A stretch of DNA of 34,741 bases. It comes from Candidatus Kapaibacterium sp. Lineage in GTDB: Bacteria > Bacteroidota > Ignavibacteria > Kapaibacteriales > UBA4661. The translations under genes and the position numbers were made by a program. Of this stretch, positions 81 through 31,149 are shown one piece after another (within the stretch, counting starts at the first letter, position 1; the number at the start of each line of letters is the position of its first letter). The notes beneath the pieces are model-generated. The model had not been told where the DNA came from. It ran no database searches and saw only the letters and a list, made by a program, of their open reading frames with translations. Location: contig JANYIG010000261.1 of assembly GCA_025358765.1 (NCBI GenBank), positions 1-34,741 of the forward strand. The letters are read 5' to 3'.

Positions 81-189
81 GGCTATTCTCCCGATAGGAA
101 ATGAATGCTATTTTACCAAAAATAACTAAATAAACGGTGTAGTAGTTTGATGGCGCGGAATTGCAACCATAGTACAAACACTCCGAAAA

Positions 190-789
190 TTACGCAAAAA
201 GCTCTGGAAAAAGAGCTTCTTCAATCATCTCGCACCAGATGTGTCCCGTGACAATATGCGATTCTTGAATGCGAGCCGTGATGCTGCTTGGAACAATCAC
301 TGCCGCATCGCACAGAGGAAAAATTGTACCCCCACCATTGCCAAGCAGCCCCACAACGGTCATTCCTTGCTTTTTGGCTTGGAGTGCGGCGTTCAGGACG
401 TTCGGCGAATTACCACTTGTGGAAATGCCCACCAGCACATCGCCCGCACGTCCGTACGCCTCTACTGCACGAGCAAATACGTTCTCGAAGCCAATGTCGT
501 TGCCGCCGGCGGTCATAATGGATGGGTCAACTGTAAGGGCAATTGCAGGAATAGCAGCGCGATTCACAGTGCCACGATAGCGGACGACAAGCTCGGCGGC
601 AAGGTGTTGAGCATCTGCCGCGCTGCCGCCGTTGCCGCAAAATAACAGTTTGCCGCCTTGTTGGAGTGATTGCACCAGCACTTCGCCGCCGTGCTGAATA
701 GATGCCGCACAGTCACGTATCAATGTGTATTTGACGGCAATAGATTCTTCGATAACAGCGCTAATACGTTCTACAGAAAATGATTTCAT
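190..789 (-). CDS. gmhA: Sedoheptulose-7-phosphate isomerase (phosphoheptose isomerase)
   Basis: A 199-residue SIS-domain protein of normal GmhA length. It would isomerise sedoheptulose 7-phosphate to D-glycero-D-manno-heptose 7-phosphate, the first step of heptose synthesis for LPS core or surface glycans, in the cytoplasm. Visible motifs are CGNGGSAADAQHLAAE (residues 51-66), the phosphate-binding GISTSGNSPN (121-130) and ARIQESHI (172-179). E66 and H178 match the catalytic Glu/His pair of the family, and H62 and Q175 match its zinc ligands. The ATG lies 4 bp after the dioxygenase stop codon, with AGGA just upstream, so the two genes are probably co-transcribed although their pathways are unrelated. 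The paralogous DnaA-binding protein DiaA shares the fold, but the retained catalytic residues favour GmhA. Confidence 0.9.
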   Translation of the reverse strand: MKSFSVERISAVIEESIAVKYTLIRDCAASIQHGGEVLVQSLQQGGKLLFCGNGGSAADAQHLAAELVVRYRGTVNRAAIPAIALTVDPSIMTAGGNDIGFENVFARAVEAYGRAGDVLVGISTSGNSPNVLNAALQAKKQGMTVVGLLGNGGGTIFPLCDAAVIVPSSITARIQESHIVTGHIWCEMIEEALFPELFA

Positions 790-7464: not shown

Positions 7465-7542
7465 TGTCATTCCGATTCCCAGCCGGAGTTCACCCCAGCG
7501 AAGGCTGGGGCTGGCATGACAGATCTGTACGGTAATCGGAAT
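7465..7542. repeat. Nested palindrome, REP-like
   Basis: The core is a perfect 7-bp stem (CCCCAGC 7493-7499, GCTGGGG 7504-7510) with a GAAG loop. It is enclosed by TGTCAT (7465-7470) with ATGACA (7516-7521), and by ATTCCGATT (7469-7477) with AATCGGAAT (7534-7542). No T-run follows, so it is not a standard terminator. The architecture and the core resemble dispersed palindromic repeats seen in many bacterial genomes. Confidence 0.6.
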
Positions 7543-9806: not shown

Positions 9807-12800
9807 TTATTCCGCAATAAGCAATTGCGCTCCGGTGCGGGGAAGTTCGAGGATGAACGTCGCGCCCGTGTCCTGCTTGCTTTCCACGCGAATCGTACCG
9901 TTCATTGCCTCTGCCAATTTTTTAACAATAGACAAACCCAAGCCCGTTGAGTTTTCGCCGCCCGTTGGTCGTGCCGAAAGTTTTGCAAAGCGTTGAAAAA
10001 GCTGCTCTTTATCCTCGTCGCTAAAGCCCGGACCTTCGTCACGCACGGCAATACGAATGGAGAATGGAGAATCGAGAATGAGAAATTGGGAATTTCCTAT
10101 TTCTTCTTGCCCGCTACTGCTATCAACAGAAATCCAGACCGAGCGTTTGACTGGCGAATATTTGACGGCATTCGAGACAAGATTATCCAGAATTTGCGCT
10201 AATGCTTCTTTGTCCGCTGCCACGTAGAGTGTTTTTGGTGGAAGCGCAACATTCAGCGTGATGTGTTTTGCTTGCGCCCGCGCTTGGTATTCTTCTGCAA
10301 CGCGCTCTATGGCTTGGTTCACGTTTACTGGCTCTATCGTCATCGCCACCGAGCCGCGCTCTATGGCATTCACGTTCAACAGATTGCTAACCATTGCCAG
10401 CATTCGGTTTGACGATTCCGAAATCATCTCCGCAAATTCTTTAATCTCTGGTTGCGTGAACGACTCTAAGTCATAGCCAAGCATGTCCGATAGCGAAATC
10501 ACGCGCGAAAGCGGATTTTTCAGGTCGTGTGCCGCAATGCCCAAAAACTCATTTTTCTCTTCGTTCAAATCCTTGAGTGCCTCATTTTGGCGCACGATTT
10601 CGTCATTTGCCCACGAAAGCTCATGGTTGGTGCGCTCTAATTCTTTTGTGTATTCCTCAAGCTGCGCCGTCCGCAGGGCAACTTGTACTTCTAATTCTTC
10701 TTTTTGGCGTTCGATGGACTGTACACGTAACGTGTACGCCGAAAAAATGCCAAACAATATTAACCCCACGATTCCAATCCGAAACCACCACATCCTCCAA
10801 AACGGCGGCTCGACCACCACCACCACACGCAGTTCCGAAGCGCTCCACACGCCATCGCTGTTCGTGCCTTTTACGCGAAACACATAGCGACCATCATCCA
10901 AGTTCGTGTAGATGGCAAAATTACGATTCCCGACATTCACCCAACCTCCATCCACGCTTTCAAGCTGATAGATATAGCGATTTTTACCCGTGCCACTAAA
11001 ATCTAACGCTGCAAACTCGAACTCAATAAAATTGTCGTTATGGTTGAGGATAATTTCTTGTACGTTGGAAATATCGCTGTCAAACGTGCGTTCGTTGCCA
11101 AATACTTTGAATGCTGTCAGGACAATTGTGGGTGGGTGCGGGTTGTCATGGATTTGGTTAGGAACAAACGCATTAAAGCCGTTAATACCGCCAAAATACA
11201 ACTCGCCTTTCGCATTTTTGTAGAAGGCATTGGTGTTAAATTCGTTGCTCTGCAAACCATCATTGGCATCGTAGGTTTTGAAGGTTGTCGTTTGTTTATC
11301 GAATTTTGCCAATCCTTGATTTGTACCCATCCACAAAAATCCGTCATTATCCTCAATCACGCCGTAGATATAATCATTTCTCAGCCCGTTTGCCAAGCCG
11401 TAATTCGCACAGGTACTCGTTTGTGGGTCAAAGCGATTTAATCCGCTTGCGGTGGCTATCCAAAGCATTCCGTCGTGGTCTTCGTGGATAGATTTTATCC
11501 AATTATTGCTGATGCTCGTAGGCGCACTTGAGTTGGCTGGTGTTGTTGCGAGCGATCCAGCGCCTTGCGTTGTGTGGAAAATGCGCCGCCATATGTGCCG
11601 CACACGGTCAAGCGAATTTAAGCCGTCGGACGTGCCAACCCACAAGGTTTTATGACTATCCTCAAACAAGCACATCACGCGGCTGTCGCTTATGGTGTTG
11701 ATATTCGCCGGGTCGTGCAGATAGCGCACAAATGCTTGTTTCTCAGGCACAAAACGGTTTAAGCCTTTTGTCGTTCCCACCCAAATTGTTCCGCTTTTGT
11801 CTTCCAAAAATGCTCGCACACCATCGCCGCTCAAACTCGTGGAATCGTTCGGATTGTTCATAAACCGCGTGAATACTCCCGTTTGCGGGTTAAATTTGTT
11901 CACACCACCGCCGTTTGTGCCTATCCAAAATTCGCCCGTCCGCGCTTTATGAATCGTCCACACCTGCGGATGGCTGAGCGAAGCGGGGTTTCCGGGAATG
12001 GGAAGATATGTTTTCATCGCTCCCGTTGTTTTATTCAGATGAACCAAACCGTTATCCGTACCAATCCACAGCGTGTTCGCCCTCTCGTCGTTCGCCTGCT
12101 CATCCTCGTAGAACGCACGAACGCTGGTGTTGGACAGGGTGATGTTTACGTCCATACCGAGCGCGTCGGTGTAAGCCGGAAATTTTTGGCGATATGCACT
12201 CCACGAATGTAAGCCGCCTGTCGCCGTACCCACCCACATTATACCAGAACGATCTTGGTATAAACTCCGCACAAAACTATTGCTGAGGCTTTTTGGGTTC
12301 GATGCGTTGTAGGTATATCGTGCAAATGAAAGGTTCGTAAGCAATGTTGAGGAGGATTCGACGGAATCGCAGTTTGCAAGCAAGTTTAGTCCGTTTTCCG
12401 TACCAACCCAAAGTGTGCCAACATTGTCACGTAACAAGCTGTACACCGCATTATTACTTAAACTTTGGTCGTTGTTCGGATTGTTAAAAGTAGAATGAAC
12501 AGCGCCTAAACGAGGAGAACGAGGATTAAATAACCCCAAACCCTGATACGTTCCCAACCACAGCCGTCCTTTGCCGTCCGGCACAATGGCGTTGATGTGG
12601 TTGCTGATGGTGGAATCATTGACCTCGAAATACAGAGATTCAAATTCCTGTGTGCGAGGATTAAAGCGGTTCAGACCGTAATCCGTTCCCACCCAAAGTT
12701 GCCCGTCTGCGTCCTCGGCAATGGAAAACACAAACGTTCCGCTCAAACTTTTCTGGTTGTACGCATCGTGCAGGAACTGCCGGAAGCTCCCCGTAGCAGC

Positions 12801-13346
12801 GTCGAAGCGGTTCAGACCGTTATCCGTCCCTATCCACAACGCGCCAGAGCGGTCTTGATAGACGGCATTGACGAAGTTGCTGCTCAGGCAATTGCTCCTG
12901 CCCGGCGTTGTTTGATACGACGTAACACTGTTCGTGCGACGGTTAAAACAATTCAGCCCGCCGCCTTTGGTTCCAATCCAGATGTTTCCTTGTTTGTCCT
13001 CGCACAGCGCCAGCACCCAGCTATTGGAAAGCATGGTTGAGTCGCCGGATTTTGCGCGGTAAACGGTGAATTTGTAACCGTCATATTTGTTCAATCCTTC
13101 TTGCGTGCCGACCCATAAAAAACCTTTTGAGTCTTGCAAAATGGCGTGTACAGAGCTTTGCGAGAGACCTTTGTCAAGGGAAAGGCGTTGGAATTGCAGT
13201 GGTGCTGAACGTGGGGATACCGTCGGTAGGTGAATGTGTTCATGCTTCTGCGCGTGGCTCTGTACCTTGTTTTGGGCATAGAGAAACGGTATCGAATACA
13301 GCATCAACAGTGATACCGTAGCGTGGAATGGTATAAAAAATCGCAT
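9807..13346 (-). CDS. Giant sensor histidine kinase with double beta-propeller and Y_Y_Y domain
   Basis: A 1179-residue membrane kinase. After a signal peptide (ending FLYAQ), about 14 repeats of the two-component-regulator-propeller type (variants of GxLWVGTxxGLNRFD) fill residues about 45-720, enough for two seven-bladed propellers. A Y_Y_Y domain (about 750-845), a membrane segment (about 853-873), a coiled coil, HisKA with phospho-acceptor H940 in AAHDLKNP, and an ATPase domain (SNAVKY, DEGPGF, STGLGLS) follow. The layout is that of Bacteroidota hybrid sensors for extracellular ligands, but there is no C-terminal receiver or AraC domain. The ATG at 13346 is preferred to 13358 because GGAG lies 6 nt upstream. 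It begins 18 bp after the HACL2-like gene, so probably one operon. Ligand unknown. Confidence 0.9.
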   Translation of the reverse strand: MRFFIPFHATVSLLMLYSIPFLYAQNKVQSHAQKHEHIHLPTVSPRSAPLQFQRLSLDKGLSQSSVHAILQDSKGFLWVGTQEGLNKYDGYKFTVYRAKSGDSTMLSNSWVLALCEDKQGNIWIGTKGGGLNCFNRRTNSVTSYQTTPGRSNCLSSNFVNAVYQDRSGALWIGTDNGLNRFDAATGSFRQFLHDAYNQKSLSGTFVFSIAEDADGQLWVGTDYGLNRFNPRTQEFESLYFEVNDSTISNHINAIVPDGKGRLWLGTYQGLGLFNPRSPRLGAVHSTFNNPNNDQSLSNNAVYSLLRDNVGTLWVGTENGLNLLANCDSVESSSTLLTNLSFARYTYNASNPKSLSNSFVRSLYQDRSGIMWVGTATGGLHSWSAYRQKFPAYTDALGMDVNITLSNTSVRAFYEDEQANDERANTLWIGTDNGLVHLNKTTGAMKTYLPIPGNPASLSHPQVWTIHKARTGEFWIGTNGGGVNKFNPQTGVFTRFMNNPNDSTSLSGDGVRAFLEDKSGTIWVGTTKGLNRFVPEKQAFVRYLHDPANINTISDSRVMCLFEDSHKTLWVGTSDGLNSLDRVRHIWRRIFHTTQGAGSLATTPANSSAPTSISNNWIKSIHEDHDGMLWIATASGLNRFDPQTSTCANYGLANGLRNDYIYGVIEDNDGFLWMGTNQGLAKFDKQTTTFKTYDANDGLQSNEFNTNAFYKNAKGELYFGGINGFNAFVPNQIHDNPHPPTIVLTAFKVFGNERTFDSDISNVQEIILNHNDNFIEFEFAALDFSGTGKNRYIYQLESVDGGWVNVGNRNFAIYTNLDDGRYVFRVKGTNSDGVWSASELRVVVVVEPPFWRMWWFRIGIVGLILFGIFSAYTLRVQSIERQKEELEVQVALRTAQLEEYTKELERTNHELSWANDEIVRQNEALKDLNEEKNEFLGIAAHDLKNPLSRVISLSDMLGYDLESFTQPEIKEFAEMISESSNRMLAMVSNLLNVNAIERGSVAMTIEPVNVNQAIERVAEEYQARAQAKHITLNVALPPKTLYVAADKEALAQILDNLVSNAVKYSPVKRSVWISVDSSSGQEEIGNSQFLILDSPFSIRIAVRDEGPGFSDEDKEQLFQRFAKLSARPTGGENSTGLGLSIVKKLAEAMNGTIRVESKQDTGATFILELPRTGAQLLIAE
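10055..10096. repeat. Heptanucleotide-periodic tract inside the kinase ATPase domain
   Basis: Six successive 7-mers can be read on the plus strand: GAATGGA twice, then GAATCGA, GAATGAG and two degenerate copies. The period is not a multiple of three, so the repetition is a DNA-level property. On the coding strand it adds the in-frame residues NSQFLILDSPFSIR (about 1085-1098) just before the DEGPGF ATP-binding box. Confidence 0.6.
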
Positions 13347-13364
13347 GGAAAGCTCCATGAAAAG

Positions 13365-15134
13365 CTACATGGAAAGTGAACCTTTACGAAATTCGGTTTT
13401 TCCGATAAGCGCATTGATAAGGAATGGCTTGCCCTCACGTGCCGAACGCTTTGCTTGGGCAATCACGCTTCCAAGTTCATCGGCACGTTGTACGACGGCA
13501 CCCTCGCCGCCAAAGCCTCGCGCCACGTCGTGATAATTTGTTCGTGCAAGAACCGTGCCGACATCATCGCCGAGCAAGGTGATTTGGTCACGGGCTATCT
13601 GCGTCCAGCCCGCATCGTTCCCCACTACTGCGATAACACCCATGCCGTGCCGCGCAAAGGAATCAAACTCCGCAATGCTATAACCCGCCGAGCCGTCACC
13701 GTAAAAAATCCATACCTCCGCATCGGGTTTGATAGCCTTCACGCCAAGCGCAAAACCCGCGCCCACGCCAAGCGTTCCGAATACGCCCGGGTCGTACCAT
13801 GCAAGCGGCGTTCGCGGTCGCACGATGTACGAGGCGGTTGCCACAAAATCCCCGCCGTCGGCAACAATAACGCTATTGTCCGCCAAGTGTTTGTCAAGCT
13901 CGCGGCAGAGATGAAGCGGATTCAGGTACTCGCCCATCGTCTCGGCTGCCTGCCGCGCAATATCGTCGTTGCGAACGGCATCGCGGTTGCGAAGCGTGGA
14001 ATGATGCGTACTGAGCGTAGATTGGTCGAGGTGGGTCGCGTCCGCCAGCGCCAACAAAAACTCCATCGGGTCGCCAAGCAGCGCCACGTCGGGGGTGCGG
14101 TTTTTGGTCAAATCTTCTTCGGAGCGATTGACGGAAACGAGCTTCGCACGGCGGCTGATGTGGTTGCCGTAATCCAAGCGGAAATCGCACGGAACACCCG
14201 CAAGGATGACCACATCTGCTTCACGGAGCGCTTCTTTGCGTTTGTGCCGCATCTGGAACGCGCTTTCCGTGCCGAGCAGTCCCCGCGCCATGCCGGAAAG
14301 ATACACAGGAATACCGAGTTTATCCACCGCCAGCGCCAATTCATGCGCCTTGCGAGCGTTCAGCATCGTCTGGCTGCCTATCACCATCACGGGGCGTTCG
14401 GCACGACGCAGAATAGCCGCCACCTGCTCCGCACCGGAACGCGGAATCTGCTTGAACTCGCCGCGCACAGGCTCGTCGCTCTGCTTATCCGTTAGGTTTT
14501 GCGCCGCGTCCGCTTGGTCGAACATCGCATCCAAATGGCGTTTTAAATACCACTGGATGGCTTGTTGCTGAATTTTCTGCGGAAGGCTCTTTGCGCCTGT
14601 GTCGCCGGACTTGATGCCATACCATTCGCGGATAATCGCCTGCGGGAAAAGCGTATCTATCGGCAATTCTACAAACACCGGACCCGGAACGCCAGACAGC
14701 GCCACGCGGAACGCCTCGCGCAGCACGTCGGGGATGTTGCGTACACGTTTGATGCTCACCGCCCACTTTACGTGCGGCTTGATAAGCGCCATCTGATCAA
14801 TATCTTGTAACGAACCACGCCCTTTCAGCACGGTTGCGGTTGCGCCACCCAAGAGGATAAGCGGTGACTGCGCCATTTGTGCGTTTTTGACGGCGGTTAT
14901 CGTGTTCGTCACGCCCGGACCCGCCGTGACTGCTGCCACGCCCGGAATGCCCGTCAGCCGCGCAACAGCGTCGGCGGCAAAGACGGCGTTGACTTCGTGG
15001 CGCGTGTCCACCACACGGATGCCCACGTTTTTGCAGCCAATCAGAATCGGCGCAATATGTCCGCCACAGAGCGTAAAAAGTGTTGTCACGCCTTGCGAAG
15101 CAAGGGTTTTGGCTACGAGTAATCCGCCGTCCAT
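13365..15134 (-). CDS. Thiamine-diphosphate lyase, HACL2/ILVBL-like (acetolactate synthase-like)
   Basis: A 589-residue TPP-dependent enzyme. It has the conserved N-terminal Glu (E47 in [13 protein letters not shown]), the central domain ([17 protein letters not shown]), and the TPP/Mg motif [12 protein letters not shown]...GNDAGW. Several signatures match human ILVBL (2-hydroxyacyl-CoA lyase 2) better than acetolactate synthase, by recall: [52 protein letters not shown] and the tail KTEFRKGS. The human enzyme cleaves 2-hydroxy-acyl-CoA to an aldehyde and formyl-CoA. The bacterial substrate is unknown. No small IlvH subunit or ilv gene is nearby, which argues against branched-chain synthesis. 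The ATG at 15134 is 51 bp after the upstream exported-protein gene; the kinase gene follows after 18 bp. Confidence 0.85.
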
Positions 15135-15183: not shown

Positions 15184-15275
15184 TGCTACTTCCGGCTGGA
15201 TGCGCCGGAGACGAGTAAATCTGTTATCAGCAGTCCTTTTTCGGCAGTCGTCTTTTTTGTGAGGTCGTAGGAATC
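15184..15275. repeat. 92-bp direct repeat, copy 1 (3' end of paralogue A)
   Basis: Aligns without gaps to 16477-16568 with four mismatches in 92 positions by eye. It covers the stop codon and the last 30 codons of the gene. Similarity falls off sharply upstream, so this end has been kept more alike, or homogenised, than the rest of the gene. Confidence 0.85.
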
Positions 15276-15758
15276 TCGAGATGATATGTCTTTGACTAAT
15301 CCTATCAATCCAAATAAAATACCCCAACCTGCGGGGGCTGAGTAATTTGGCTGCTCGCGTCCCCCGCTGGCTGCATATGTAAGCGTTCCATGGAAAATAC
15401 TTGCAAGAACCCCACCGCCAATTCCATACCATAGTGCGACAGATGGAGGACTATACCTGATACTCGTGATAGTGCTAATCTGTAACGCTTGTATCCGTCG
15501 ATCTTTTCCGCCCGCCCATTCAAAACGAGACAACCGCTTGGAAACATATAACGTATCAGCTACAAGGCTATCCAAGCGCACACCATCAACACTGGTTTGG
15601 TCAGCAGTTACAATATCCCAGTCCGCCTCTTGTGCTTTGCCGCTTTGAGCAATTATACATTGCGCTGGCACGGGCTGTTCTTGCGCCTCTTGTGCAAGCG
15701 CGGGAGCCATTTCCACACACAGGCAGGAAAAGAACGCAAGGCAATATGTTCTGTTCAT
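15186..15758 (-). CDS. Exported small protein, paralogue A flanking vapBC
   Basis: A 190-residue protein of unrecognised family. A signal peptide ends near PALAQ. The mature part contains [32 protein letters not shown] and ITSIRYS, a beta-rich pattern, then a Gly-rich hydrophobic segment ([11 protein letters not shown]) and a second one ([11 protein letters not shown]). It ends in [21 protein letters not shown]...ASSRK, which is nearly identical to the tail of the gene at 16479. The two are clearly paralogues by order of motifs, although their middles have diverged. The ATG at 15758 is preferred to a GTG at 15788 because the signal peptide starts there. A periplasmic or outer-membrane location is inferred; the function is unknown. 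Confidence 0.65.
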
Positions 15759-15853
15759 AGCATTACGAGGGTTGGTGTTGAAGAACACGAAATAACCGTT
15801 AAAATTAACCCTTAATTCGCATGAAGAGTGTTAATCAATGCTCCTTCCGGCAA

Positions 15854-16252
15854 TCATAGCTGAAAAATATTCAGGTTGAAATATTCTACAAACGGCTCAA
15901 AATCATTATCTGCGTGAAGCAGGGGCAAATTGTGGTGTATGCAAAATGTCGCTATTAGGCAATCTATCGTTTTGCGAACGGTAATCCCTTGCAAACGAAG
16001 AAAACGGTAATGGTCGGCGCTTTGCACAGCAATATCCCTGTCGAGCATGGTATAAAACGGCAAGGCAAGCAAGAGCCGCTTTGCTACGTCGTAATCACGT
16101 TGATGGCGAAATCCTTGCAAAACCTCTGTGAGGATAAGGTCGCCCATAAGAACTTGCTCGTGACGCAGTGCTGCATCCAGCGCGTCTGCCTGTGGTGTTG
16201 GGCTGCCATTAAAGTAGTCAATCCATACAGAAGAGTCAACGAATATCTTCAT
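15854..16252 (-). CDS. vapC: PIN-domain ribonuclease toxin VapC
   Basis: A 132-residue PIN-domain protein of normal VapC length. The acidic active-site set is visible: D6 (MKIFVDSSVWIDYF), E43 (LTEVLQGF), D97 (KTIDCLIATF) and D115/D117 (LLHADNDFEPF). Family members cleave RNA, often initiator tRNA or rRNA, when freed from the antitoxin. The ATG at 16252 lies inside the antitoxin gene, with a 17-bp overlap, the usual coupled arrangement. It is embedded between two paralogous exported-protein genes on the same strand. All catalytic residues are present, so the toxin looks intact. Confidence 0.88.
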   Translation of the reverse strand: MKIFVDSSVWIDYFNGSPTPQADALDAALRHEQVLMGDLILTEVLQGFRHQRDYDVAKRLLLALPFYTMLDRDIAVQSADHYRFLRLQGITVRKTIDCLIATFCIHHNLPLLHADNDFEPFVEYFNLNIFQL

Positions 16253-16445
16253 GGCGTTGCTCTCGAAGCTTGGGTAAATCGCCGCTCCACGCTAATGCGC
16301 CGCGTAGCTCGCGTATATTCTCCTGCACACGCATTTGCACATACAGCCGTAATGCCTCATTGACCAACATATCAACCGATTGGTCTTTGTCAAACTCCCG
16401 TACCTGCTTAAGCAAGGTATCATCAAGCATAAGAGTTGTTTGCAT
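16236..16445 (-). CDS. vapB: Antitoxin VapB (ribbon-helix-helix type)
   Basis: A 69-residue protein with an N-terminal beta-strand MQTTLMLDD followed by LLKQVREFD and the helix VDMLVNEALRLYVQMRV, which is the ribbon-helix-helix DNA-binding layout of VapB (DUF2191-like) antitoxins. The C-terminal half (LRGALAWSGDLPKLREQR) would wrap the toxin active site; a Trp/Gly/Leu motif there is common in the family. AGGA-like sequence precedes the ATG at 16445. It overlaps vapC by 17 bp and starts 33 bp after paralogue B, so it may be read from that gene's promoter as well as its own. Autoregulation is expected but no operator was resolved. Confidence 0.82.
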   Translation of the reverse strand: MQTTLMLDDTLLKQVREFDKDQSVDMLVNEALRLYVQMRVQENIRELRGALAWSGDLPKLREQRHEDIR

Positions 16446-16476
16446 TGTCCTGTCCTTCCATGAAATTGTGAATTGA

Positions 16477-16568
16477 TGCTACTTCCGGCTGGATGCGCCA
16501 GAGACGAGTAAATCTGTTAACAGCAGCCATTTTTCGGCAGTCGTCTTTTTTGTGAGGTCGTAGGAATC
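16477..16568. repeat. 92-bp direct repeat, copy 2 (3' end of paralogue B)
   Basis: Partner of 15184-15275, same orientation, 1293 bp apart, about 88 of 92 positions identical by eye. Recombination between the copies would remove vapBC and most of one paralogue, leaving a single fused gene. Confidence 0.85.
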
Positions 16569-17045
16569 GTGACCCGGGTTGTCAATAATTGCGCCGATAA
16601 TAAACCCTACAGCACCGCCCAATAAAGCGCCGCGTAAAAATTCAGTATTTCCATAGGGAGAAGAATTGACTCCACCCGCAATCATTGACGTTACAAATGC
16701 CCCACCTATCGAGTACCAAGGACTCATTGACGAACTGTGGGTCATTTTCTCAATATCGCCAACGAACAAGCGTTTGAGGACACTTGCTTGCCCTGTAGAG
16801 CGTTCATAGCGCGACGACTGCTTGTAGGCATACAACCTATCAGCAAGCAAGCTGTCCAAGCGCACTTCTTCAACGCTGATTCTGTTTGTCGTGATAATAT
16901 TCCATTTCAGTTCCTGCGCTTTTCCACTTTGTGCCACCACGCGCTGCGCTGGCACATGCCGTTCTTGTGTCTCTTGTGCAAACGCGGAAGCTGCACAAAC
17001 CAGCAGCAAAGCCGCGAGCATCCAAGTATTGCGGTGTGTCATCAT
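16479..17045 (-). CDS. Exported small protein, paralogue B flanking vapBC
   Basis: A 188-residue paralogue of the product encoded at 15186. It has a signal peptide (MMTHRNTWMLAALLLV, ending ASAFAQ), then the shared blocks [35 protein letters not shown] and VGDIEKM. A Gly-rich hydrophobic region resembling a glycine zipper (SIGGAFVTSMIAGG, RGALLGGAVGFIIGAII) is longer than in paralogue A. The tail [21 protein letters not shown]...SSRK is shared. The first of two adjacent ATGs is used as start. A TATATTTG box and a large palindrome lie upstream. The family has no name I recognise; an envelope role is inferred from the signal peptide and the glycine-rich membrane segments. Confidence 0.65.
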   Translation of the reverse strand: MMTHRNTWMLAALLLVCAASAFAQETQERHVPAQRVVAQSGKAQELKWNIITTNRISVEEVRLDSLLADRLYAYKQSSRYERSTGQASVLKRLFVGDIEKMTHSSSMSPWYSIGGAFVTSMIAGGVNSSPYGNTEFLRGALLGGAVGFIIGAIIDNPGHDSYDLTKKTTAEKWLLLTDLLVSGASSRK

Positions 17046-17080
17046 GATTGTACATTTGTGAAAAAAGTCTTGCGGTATTC

Positions 17081-17184
17081 CCCTCATCCCAACCTTCTCC
17101 CAAAAGCAAAGAAGCCGGATAGAAAGCTCTCGCCCGCCACGCCTTCGTGAGGGGAGAGGATTGGGGAGAGAATTGGGGTGAGGG
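17081..17184. repeat. Imperfect intergenic inverted repeat, REP-like
   Basis: The left arm CCCTCATCCCAACCTTCTCC (17081-17100) and the right arm ending TTGGGGTGAGGG (17164-17184) are complementary apart from a few positions, about 60 bp apart. CCCTCAnCCCAA...CTCTCCC palindromes are dispersed in many unrelated bacterial genomes. Here it fills the gap after the NtrY-like gene and would lie in the leader of paralogue B. Confidence 0.65.
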
Positions 17185-17188
17185 AAAA

Positions 17189-17196
17189 CAAATATA
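17189..17196 (-). promoter_or_regulatory. Putative -7 promoter element for paralogue B / vapBC
   Basis: The minus strand reads TATATTTG. There is no good -33 TTG at 19-21 bp. Transcription from here would give a leader of about 140 nt containing the palindrome at 17081-17184 and could extend through vapBC to the HACL2-like gene. Confidence 0.33.
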
Positions 17197-17231: not shown

Positions 17232-18596
17232 TCAAAACCGCAGCGTAAACGTCGTGCCGTGTTCCGGCTGCGACTGAGCCGTGATGCTGCCTCCGTGCAA
17301 TCGCATTATTTGCCGCGCCAAACTCAAGCCAATGCCGGAGCCGTCGGGTTTGGTGGTGAAAAACGGAATAAAAATCTTCTCCAACGCAGACGGCACAATG
17401 CCAGCGCCGTTGTCTGCCACGTACATCACCACGCGCCCACGCTCGTTCAGTCGTGCTGTGAGGCGAATCGTGGGGCTGTGATTGCGTTTGCCTTCCAGCG
17501 CGTGGATTGCATTGATAACGAGGTTGATTAAGGTTTGTTCTAACAGTTTTTCATCGGCGGTAAGCTCCAACGTAGGCGGTTGAACATCCACCACCAACGT
17601 CACGGAAGCCGCTTCTAATCGCGGGCGCAGGAATTCGTGGATGGTTGCAAAGAGTTCCGCAATCACAAAGAGCTTAAAATCGGGTTTGGGAACGCGGGTA
17701 AGATTGCGGTAATTCTCCACGAAGCGCATCAATCCTATGCTACGCTTGTGAATCGTTTGTGCTGCGCTGCGAATATCCGTTACGGTCTCCGTTTGCTGTA
17801 AAGCGCTTGCATCCTGTGATAGAAGGCTGTTGATGGTGTCGGACAGTGACGAAATGGGCGCTATCGAATTCATAATCTCGTGCGTCAACACACGAATGAG
17901 CATTTGCCACGCTTCCATCTCTTTTTCTTCGAGTTCGCTGACGATGTTTTGCAGCGACACCAACGTAAACTCGCGTCCGCTCATGCGGAATTTCGTGCTT
18001 GCCACAACGATTTGCAGCAGCTCATCATCCACAACCAGCTTCACGAGCGCTTTTTCACCTGCTTGCATGGCGGAAAGCTGCGCCGCGAGTGCCTTCCCGC
18101 TTGGTACATGCCGCTCCAAATCGCGAATAAATCGTAGATGTGGAATATTCAAGAGCTTGCGGGCTGCAGGGTTGATAAAATCTATCGCCCCGTGCTGGTC
18201 GAAGGAGAGAAGCCCGATGCCGACGTGCTGCAAAATTGTCTGCACCGCTTGGTATTGCTCTTCTTTTTCGGAGCGGATATGCTGAAACTGCGATAAAACC
18301 TTGTTAAACGCATCCGAAAGCTCTTGAAACGAGCTTCCAAGTGCATCCGGCGCAAAATGCTGCGACGAATCCGCGTATTGCACTGCCTCCAAAAAGCGCA
18401 ATAGCTGGCGGTTCGTGGATTCCACATACCGAATCAAACCCCACATTTGCGCCACCGCCAACACGGTCACAATCGCCATGCTTGCGTACAGCGCCGTATT
18501 TGCGGCAAGGTAGAGCAACAATAACAGCGTTGCGGCAATCGCCAACACGCGTACGATGCACTGAAGGCGAAAATATTTGCGGACGGCGATAGTCAT
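17232..18596 (-). CDS. NtrY-type sensor histidine kinase
   Basis: A 454-residue kinase. Two N-terminal membrane helices (about residues 13-55) are followed by a HAMP-like linker, a PAS-like region (ILQHVGIGLLSFDQHGAIDFINPAARKLL, about 121-150), a dimerisation helix with phospho-acceptor His in RVLTHEIMNSIAPI, and an ATPase domain (NLVINAIHAL, ADNGAGI, FFTTKPDGSGIGLSLARQI). HEIxNSLAPI-type H-boxes and the short periplasmic loop are typical of the NtrY branch. Its ATG overlaps the NtrC-type regulator's stop as ATGA, so the two are translationally coupled and surely act as a pair. The signal sensed is unknown. Confidence 0.9.
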   Translation of the reverse strand: MTIAVRKYFRLQCIVRVLAIAATLLLLLYLAANTALYASMAIVTVLAVAQMWGLIRYVESTNRQLLRFLEAVQYADSSQHFAPDALGSSFQELSDAFNKVLSQFQHIRSEKEEQYQAVQTILQHVGIGLLSFDQHGAIDFINPAARKLLNIPHLRFIRDLERHVPSGKALAAQLSAMQAGEKALVKLVVDDELLQIVVASTKFRMSGREFTLVSLQNIVSELEEKEMEAWQMLIRVLTHEIMNSIAPISSLSDTINSLLSQDASALQQTETVTDIRSAAQTIHKRSIGLMRFVENYRNLTRVPKPDFKLFVIAELFATIHEFLRPRLEAASVTLVVDVQPPTLELTADEKLLEQTLINLVINAIHALEGKRNHSPTIRLTARLNERGRVVMYVADNGAGIVPSALEKIFIPFFTTKPDGSGIGLSLARQIMRLHGGSITAQSQPEHGTTFTLRF

Positions 18597-20005
18597 AATC
18601 CATATTTCTCCATGCGTCGGTACAGCGCAGCCCGCGTCAATCCAAGCTCCTCTGCTGCGTGGCTGACGTTCCCGCTATGTTTCGAGAGTGCTTTGCGGAC
18701 GGCAAGTTTTTCGAGGTCTTCGAGGTTGAAATTTTCGATGGCAAGGTTGGAAACGTTGTCGTTATTCGCTTCCACCGCAGAAAGCGCTATGCTACTTGGT
18801 TGCAACACTTTTTCGTCGTCACTCATTATTACTGCACGTTCTAACGTGTGCTGAAGCTCGCGCACATTGCCGCGCCACGGGTAAGACGTGAGTTTTTTCA
18901 GCGCCGATTGCGACAAGGATTTGACGGGTTTGCGATACTTCGCGCAATATTGGCGTAAAAAATGTTCCGCCAAAAGCGGGATGTCTTCGGAGCGCTTGCG
19001 AAGTGGTGGAAGGTTGATTTCGACCGTGTTCATGCGGTACAGCAGGTCTTGACGGAATTGTTTTTTTTCGACCATTTCGTACAGCGGCATATTCGTCGCA
19101 CAAACGAGGCGAATGTCAATCGGAACATGTTTGTTGCTTCCAACACGTGTAACGGTGCGATTTTGCAGCACGGTCAGCAACTTTGCTTGCAGTGGCAGCG
19201 AGAGATTCCCAATTTCATCCAAAAAAAGCGTTCCGCCGGATGCAATCTCGAAGCGCCCTGCACGGTCTTCCTTCGCATCGGTGAACGCGCCTTTGGTGTG
19301 ACCAAATAGCTCGCTCTCGAACAACGTCTCGCTGATAGCACCCATATCCACGCTGATAAACACCTCGCCCGACCGTGCCGAACGGCGGTGTAGTTCCCGT
19401 GCAGCGACTTCTTTGCCCGTGCCATTTTCACCCAAAATCAGCACTGTCGCATCGGTTTTTGCCACTTTGTCGAGCAGCGTGTTTATGGTTTGCATCACCT
19501 CCGATTGCCCGATGAAATCGTGCGCGGGGGCGTTTTTATCCGCCATTGCGGAAAGCGCAGAACGGAGCGCTGTTTTTTGAGATTTCAGCGTTTCTACCTC
19601 GCGTTTTGTGCCGGAAAGATTCATTGCCGAAGAAATCGTGGCGAGGAGTTTTTCGTTTTCCCATGGCTTCAGCACAAAATCTGTTGCGCCTTGTTTAATG
19701 GCGCGGATGGCGGTATCCATGTCGCCGTAGGCAGTAATCATCACCACCACAGCCGACGGGTCGAGTTCCAAAATGCGCCCAAGCCAGTGAAAACCTTCCT
19801 CGCCGCTGCTCACATCTTTCGTGAAGTTCATATCGAGCAAAATCACGTCGTAGCGCTCGTTTCTAAGCAGCGTGGGAATGGCTTCCGGCTTGGTCTCGCA
19901 ATGAACAAGGGCGTAATGTTGTTTTAACAGCAATCGCAGCGAAAGCAGTACGTCTTCGTTATCGTCAATAGCTAAAATTTTACCGTATTTTTCGTCGTTT
20001 TTCAT
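18593..20005 (-). CDS. NtrC-family sigma-54-dependent response regulator
   Basis: A 470-residue regulator with three domains. The receiver (1-125) has phospho-acceptor D58 in ILLDMNF. The AAA+ domain (about 162-395) has Walker A GENGTGKE (192-199), the sigma-54 contact loop GAFTDA (239-244) and Walker B GGTLFLDEIG (257-266). A Fis-type HTH lies at the C-terminus (about 430-470). The loop differs from canonical GAFTGA by G to D, but keeps the key Phe and Thr; the same variant is known in other NtrC relatives. It would activate sigma-54 promoters when phosphorylated by the NtrY-like kinase, with which it overlaps by 4 bp. No sigma-54 (GG-N10-GC) site was confidently found in the window. Promoter at 20073-20103. 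Confidence 0.92.
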   Translation of the reverse strand: MKNDEKYGKILAIDDNEDVLLSLRLLLKQHYALVHCETKPEAIPTLLRNERYDVILLDMNFTKDVSSGEEGFHWLGRILELDPSAVVVMITAYGDMDTAIRAIKQGATDFVLKPWENEKLLATISSAMNLSGTKREVETLKSQKTALRSALSAMADKNAPAHDFIGQSEVMQTINTLLDKVAKTDATVLILGENGTGKEVAARELHRRSARSGEVFISVDMGAISETLFESELFGHTKGAFTDAKEDRAGRFEIASGGTLFLDEIGNLSLPLQAKLLTVLQNRTVTRVGSNKHVPIDIRLVCATNMPLYEMVEKKQFRQDLLYRMNTVEINLPPLRKRSEDIPLLAEHFLRQYCAKYRKPVKSLSQSALKKLTSYPWRGNVRELQHTLERAVIMSDDEKVLQPSSIALSAVEANNDNVSNLAIENFNLEDLEKLAVRKALSKHSGNVSHAAEELGLTRAALYRRMEKYGL

Positions 20006-31108: not shown

Positions 31109-31149
31109 CAACAAAGCCCTGAATCTACCGATGATTCAGGGCTTTGTTG
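31109..31149 (-). terminator. Strong hairpin terminator downstream of citrate synthase
   Basis: A perfect 17-bp stem (31109-31125 with 31133-31149, beginning CAACAAAGCCCTG) and a 7-nt loop lie 22 bp after the citrate synthase stop. On the minus strand only a short TTTC follows, so the stem itself, rather than a U-run, is the main signal. No plus-strand gene ends here. Confidence 0.7.

Follow-up and report, generated by a model that had tools for sequence, protein, structure and literature searches.

MvpAT, a member of the VapBC family carried by the Shigella plasmid pINV, helps to retain the sequence next to it in the face of recombination between insertion sequences, and the authors of that study propose post-recombinational killing as the way in which this is achieved (PMC5629016). 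With this precedent, the principle that a VapBC pair may protect its neighbourhood is already known. Exchange of sequence between paralogues by interlocus gene conversion has likewise been reviewed (PMC3924818). The locus described here lies in a window of 34,741 nucleotides (the whole stretch of DNA analysed) from Candidatus Kapaibacterium sp., and holds a predicted vapBC pair between two genes for exported proteins, A and B, whose 3' ends are nearly identical. It is best explained, with a probability of roughly 0.7, by orphan exported paralogues that underwent gene conversion at their 3' ends and between which an acquired vapBC came to lie. The coordinates of all features are collected in Table 1.

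Table 1. Features of the A–vapBC–B locus, its flanks and the other family members (window positions unless a contig is named).
Feature	Position	Strand	Remarks
Propeller-type sensor kinase gene	9807-13358		follows the acetolactate-synthase-like gene; conserved in related genomes
Acetolactate-synthase-like enzyme gene	13365-15134		one flank; conserved in related genomes
3' tail repeat of A	15184-15275	-	29 codons, stop codon and 2 nt; 88/92 match to B tail
Gene A, exported protein	15186-15788	-	ORF; signal peptide; paralogue of B; likely start ATG, about 15758
Older homologous block, A (VPAQ...LY region)	15519-15707	-	72% identity to 16803-16991
vapC, PIN-domain toxin	15854-16252	-	NCBIfam NF047959 TA_toxin_VapC, 168.4 bits (cut-off 80); Pfam PIN PF01850, 54.5 bits (cut-off 23.6)
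vapB, antitoxin	16236-16445	-	Pfam PF09957 VapB_antitoxin, 25.4 bits (cut-off 23.4)
3' tail repeat of B	16477-16568	-	88/92 match to A tail; dS 0.10
Gene B, exported protein	16479-17087	-	ORF; signal peptide; glycine-rich hydrophobic stretch before tail (hydropathy); likely start about 17045
Older homologous block, B	16803-16991	-	72% identity to 15519-15707
Dispersed palindromic-type repeat (CCCCTCA...GTGAGGG)	17075-17195		between histidine kinase gene and B, upstream of B; 29 matches in genome
Histidine kinase gene	17232-18596		other flank; conserved in related genomes
NtrC-type regulator gene	18593-20005		paired with histidine kinase; conserved in related genomes
Paralogue C	contig C39, about 116-721	-	
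Paralogue D	contig C114, from 6005 (contig end 6388)		homologous in 3' part only

Both A and B are encoded on the minus strand, and their products are 49% identical overall, with only about 28% identity in the middle and an older homologous block of 189 bp. The regions upstream of the two genes reveal no shared duplication border. The first-pass annotation, which had described co-directional paralogues with diverged middles, exported proteins of no known family and an intact vapBC between them, is borne out on each of these points. Profile searches of A and B return no Pfam or NCBIfam match, comparison of the family with solved structures gives nothing below an E value of 0.8, and PADLOC yields no hit. 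The glycine-zipper envelope families PF13441, PF13488 and PF05433 produce weak matches in single family members only, the best (E 0.0032) being confined to one member. Hydropathy, combined with a low-confidence structural model of B (mean pLDDT 47.6), suggests an architecture with a signal peptide, what is probably a small beta domain, a hydrophobic stretch rich in glycine and, at the C-terminus, a conserved helix, and envelope proteins are the most likely kind to which such a family would belong. Besides the dispersed palindromic-type repeat found upstream of B, the window contains an intergenic 41-nt palindrome (31109-31149), 88% self-complementary.

The tails of A and B match with 95.7% identity (E=2e-36), in agreement with the earlier count of about 88 identical positions in the last 92 bp. 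This match includes uninterrupted identical runs 39 and 23 nt long and stops 2 nt past the stop codon, beyond which the downstream flanks are unrelated. Alignment of the 3' ends, proposed previously as a check for gene conversion, gives a synonymous divergence (dS) of 0.10 in the last 29 codons, a short stretch with about 22 synonymous sites, whereas the other blocks of the pair give 0.81, 1.42 and saturation, and so nowhere less than 0.8. The tail of the third paralogue C differs from those of A and B by a dS of 0.45–0.46. Silent divergence in the tract is thus far under that of the rest of the pair, and under that of the same region in comparison with other members. Furthermore, codons for the same residue are identical between A and B in 26 of 27 cases in the tail but in 26 of 59 outside it (Fisher p=1e-6), and permutation of silent codons places the identical silent-codon run of the tail at p=5e-5. 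When the tail mismatches of A/B are set against those of A/C, the difference has p=0.01 for nucleotides and p=0.08 for silent codons of the tail alone. Together, the dS and silent-codon contrasts imply that the tails exchanged sequence later than the bodies diverged. A diversity-generating retroelement acting on the tail was also considered and dropped, the four differences not being confined to adenines.

Across the four family members encoded in the genome, moreover, conservation is strongest in the tail, and constraint therefore contributes to the identity of A and B. It has accordingly to be asked whether the tail identity could be due entirely to a functional C-terminus that is strongly conserved as protein, as the first-pass annotation had allowed, or else at the RNA level. 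The C-terminal motif DSYDLTK.TTA.K.LL.TDLLVSG.S.R is nearly invariant in the four members, and for A/C and B/C, too, similarity is somewhat higher in the tail than in the middle, as would be expected if conservation alone were at work; silent sites argue against it, since silent codon changes in the tail, per shared residues, number 1/27 for A/B but 5/22 for A/C and 7/23 for B/C. An explanation by conservation only is consequently quite improbable, and the A/B match exceeds both chance and protein constraint. The mechanism of tail exchange is most likely gene conversion, rather than another form of recombination.

The two remaining members of the family, C and D, are located elsewhere in the source genome (4.86 Mb in 362 contigs) and repeat the A/B pattern of 3'-anchored identity. 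They share 260 bp at 97.7% identity (C39 1-260; C114 5890-6149), roughly 140 bp of which are the 3' end of the coding sequence, the rest being flank that includes the start of a sigma-54 activator gene; upstream of this stretch the two diverge sharply. The activator gene is complete only on C114, and C39 starts inside it, so that C and D may be two alleles, or two loci collapsed in assembly. A short repeat upstream of D (C114 6308-6349) is also found in the window (7474-7514), and C114 ends about 40 bp beyond it.

The search for the family covered 122 further genomes of the order, among them 9 of the same taxonomic family, 394 others of the phylum (partly overlapping), 84,980 species by pattern scan, and viral contigs and plasmids, and found it in none of these. 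Weak profile matches obtained outside this genome, with E values of 0.001-0.8 per genome, proved on inspection to be signal peptides, repeats and membrane stretches of unrelated proteins. Within the genomes searched, A and B thus represent what appears to be a lineage-specific orphan family. The genes on either side are, by comparison, conserved in related genomes, where neither of the two flanking blocks has a relative of A, B or vapBC beside it; in one of these genomes, G007, the blocks are found on different contigs. As both are conserved yet separate there, A, vapBC and B sit at a block junction. The acetolactate-synthase-like enzyme and the propeller kinase also occur as a pair in two of the relatives (L040 and L041).

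The vapBC pair itself comprises a PIN-domain toxin scoring over its curated cut-off and, directly upstream, a VapB-type antitoxin that also exceeds its cut-off, the two reading frames overlapping by 17 bp. Residues D6, E43, D97 and D115 of VapC are acidic and occupy the positions expected of a PIN active site. Relatives of this VapC reach no more than 64% identity and belong to Deltaproteobacteria, Gammaproteobacteria, Chloroflexi, Cyanobacteria and other groups, and a VapB-like frame lies directly upstream of VapC in 51 of 80 loci from other genomes. From its sequence the pair is a predicted type II toxin-antitoxin system of a common, widely transferred and ordinary-looking type. VapC is absent from the 9 genomes examined of the same taxonomic family, which suggests that vapBC was acquired, presumably by horizontal transfer; its GC content (46–48%) is only slightly under the 50% of the window.

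The position of the pair raises the question of whether the toxin pair and the exported proteins work together as a single unit, for instance through toxin modulation or joint regulation. All four genes lie on one strand, with a gap of 33 bp between B and vapB and about 95 bp from vapC to the likely start of A, and co-transcription of B, vapB, vapC and A is therefore possible. Against this, contigs C39 and C114, which carry C and D, have no vapBC, the genome contains no second copy of this VapC, and a member of the family lies near VapC in 0 of the 80 loci from other genomes. A link between family and toxin, raised in the first-pass annotation, thus finds no support; a functional unit is hardly credible, and nothing requires the products of A and B to be functionally connected with the toxin.

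A further explanation concerns how the arrangement was formed. In a Campbell-type single crossover, a circle carrying vapBC and A would have recombined into the tail of a resident B, leaving the 92-bp repeats as junctions. The order B body–tail–vapBC–A body–tail would then arise directly, with vapBC and A arriving together, and this is exactly the order present, the tails being near-identical direct repeats. The absence of both A and vapBC in relatives, together with the separate contigs of the flanking blocks in G007, is also in its favour. B is missing in relatives too, however, and so no empty site is seen; moreover, the tails of C and D have been homogenised without any toxin pair, and no relative of the family was found among the viral contigs and plasmids searched. 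Integration of this kind is, on balance, unlikely.

Under the preferred reading, gene conversion with an acquired vapBC, A and B would have split long ago within a small family of exported proteins, probably of the envelope, that is specific to this lineage. Later homologous recombination between the copies would have homogenised their 3' ends, with the tract reaching only a little beyond the stop codon, since that is where homology runs out, and a horizontally acquired vapBC, of a type common to many phyla, would have become located between them. A broader role, in which the 3' ends of the family serve as recombination anchors for the exchange or insertion of variable bodies, shuffling exported proteins (A/B, C/D) while vapBC locks one arrangement, is very improbable.

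The toxin pair nevertheless lies between direct repeats able to recombine (92 bp, 96%, 1293 bp apart), and the identical runs within them make RecA-type recombination plausible. Read along the coding strand, the body and tail of B come first, then vapB and vapC, and last the body and tail of A. A recombination event that joins the two tails is predicted to remove 1293 bp, comprising vapBC and the A body, and would leave B complete with 2 residue changes; the loss of vapBC foreseen in the first-pass annotation thus stands, but not the fusion of paralogues, as an intact B would remain. If vapBC is active, deletants of this segment would be without a supply of antitoxin and hence selected against, so that the pair would act against loss of the 1293 bp by RecA-type deletion. 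The locus would offer a compact natural case of a toxin pair inside a segment deletable via short homologous repeats, in which the idea that chromosomal toxin-antitoxin pairs stabilise sequence locally could be approached at a 1.3-kb scale. In other respects it is an instance of ordinary recombination between paralogues of an orphan protein family, in a lineage that is poorly sampled.

In relation to known systems, the pair resembles other type II VapBC modules in its vapB–vapC order, overlap, domain matches, acidic PIN residues and patchy spread over phyla, and only its position between paralogues sets it apart, nothing else distinctive having been found. With MvpAT it shares the placement of a VapBC pair between repeats whose recombination would delete the pair (PMC5629016). 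There the repeats are plasmid insertion sequences and the effect was measured, whereas here they are 92-bp gene ends and the effect is a prediction. As for gene conversion between paralogues (PMC3924818), the likeness resides in a short tract of low silent divergence inside divergent paralogues, while the present case differs in concerning a bacterial orphan family, in which two pairs each have a 3'-anchored tract.
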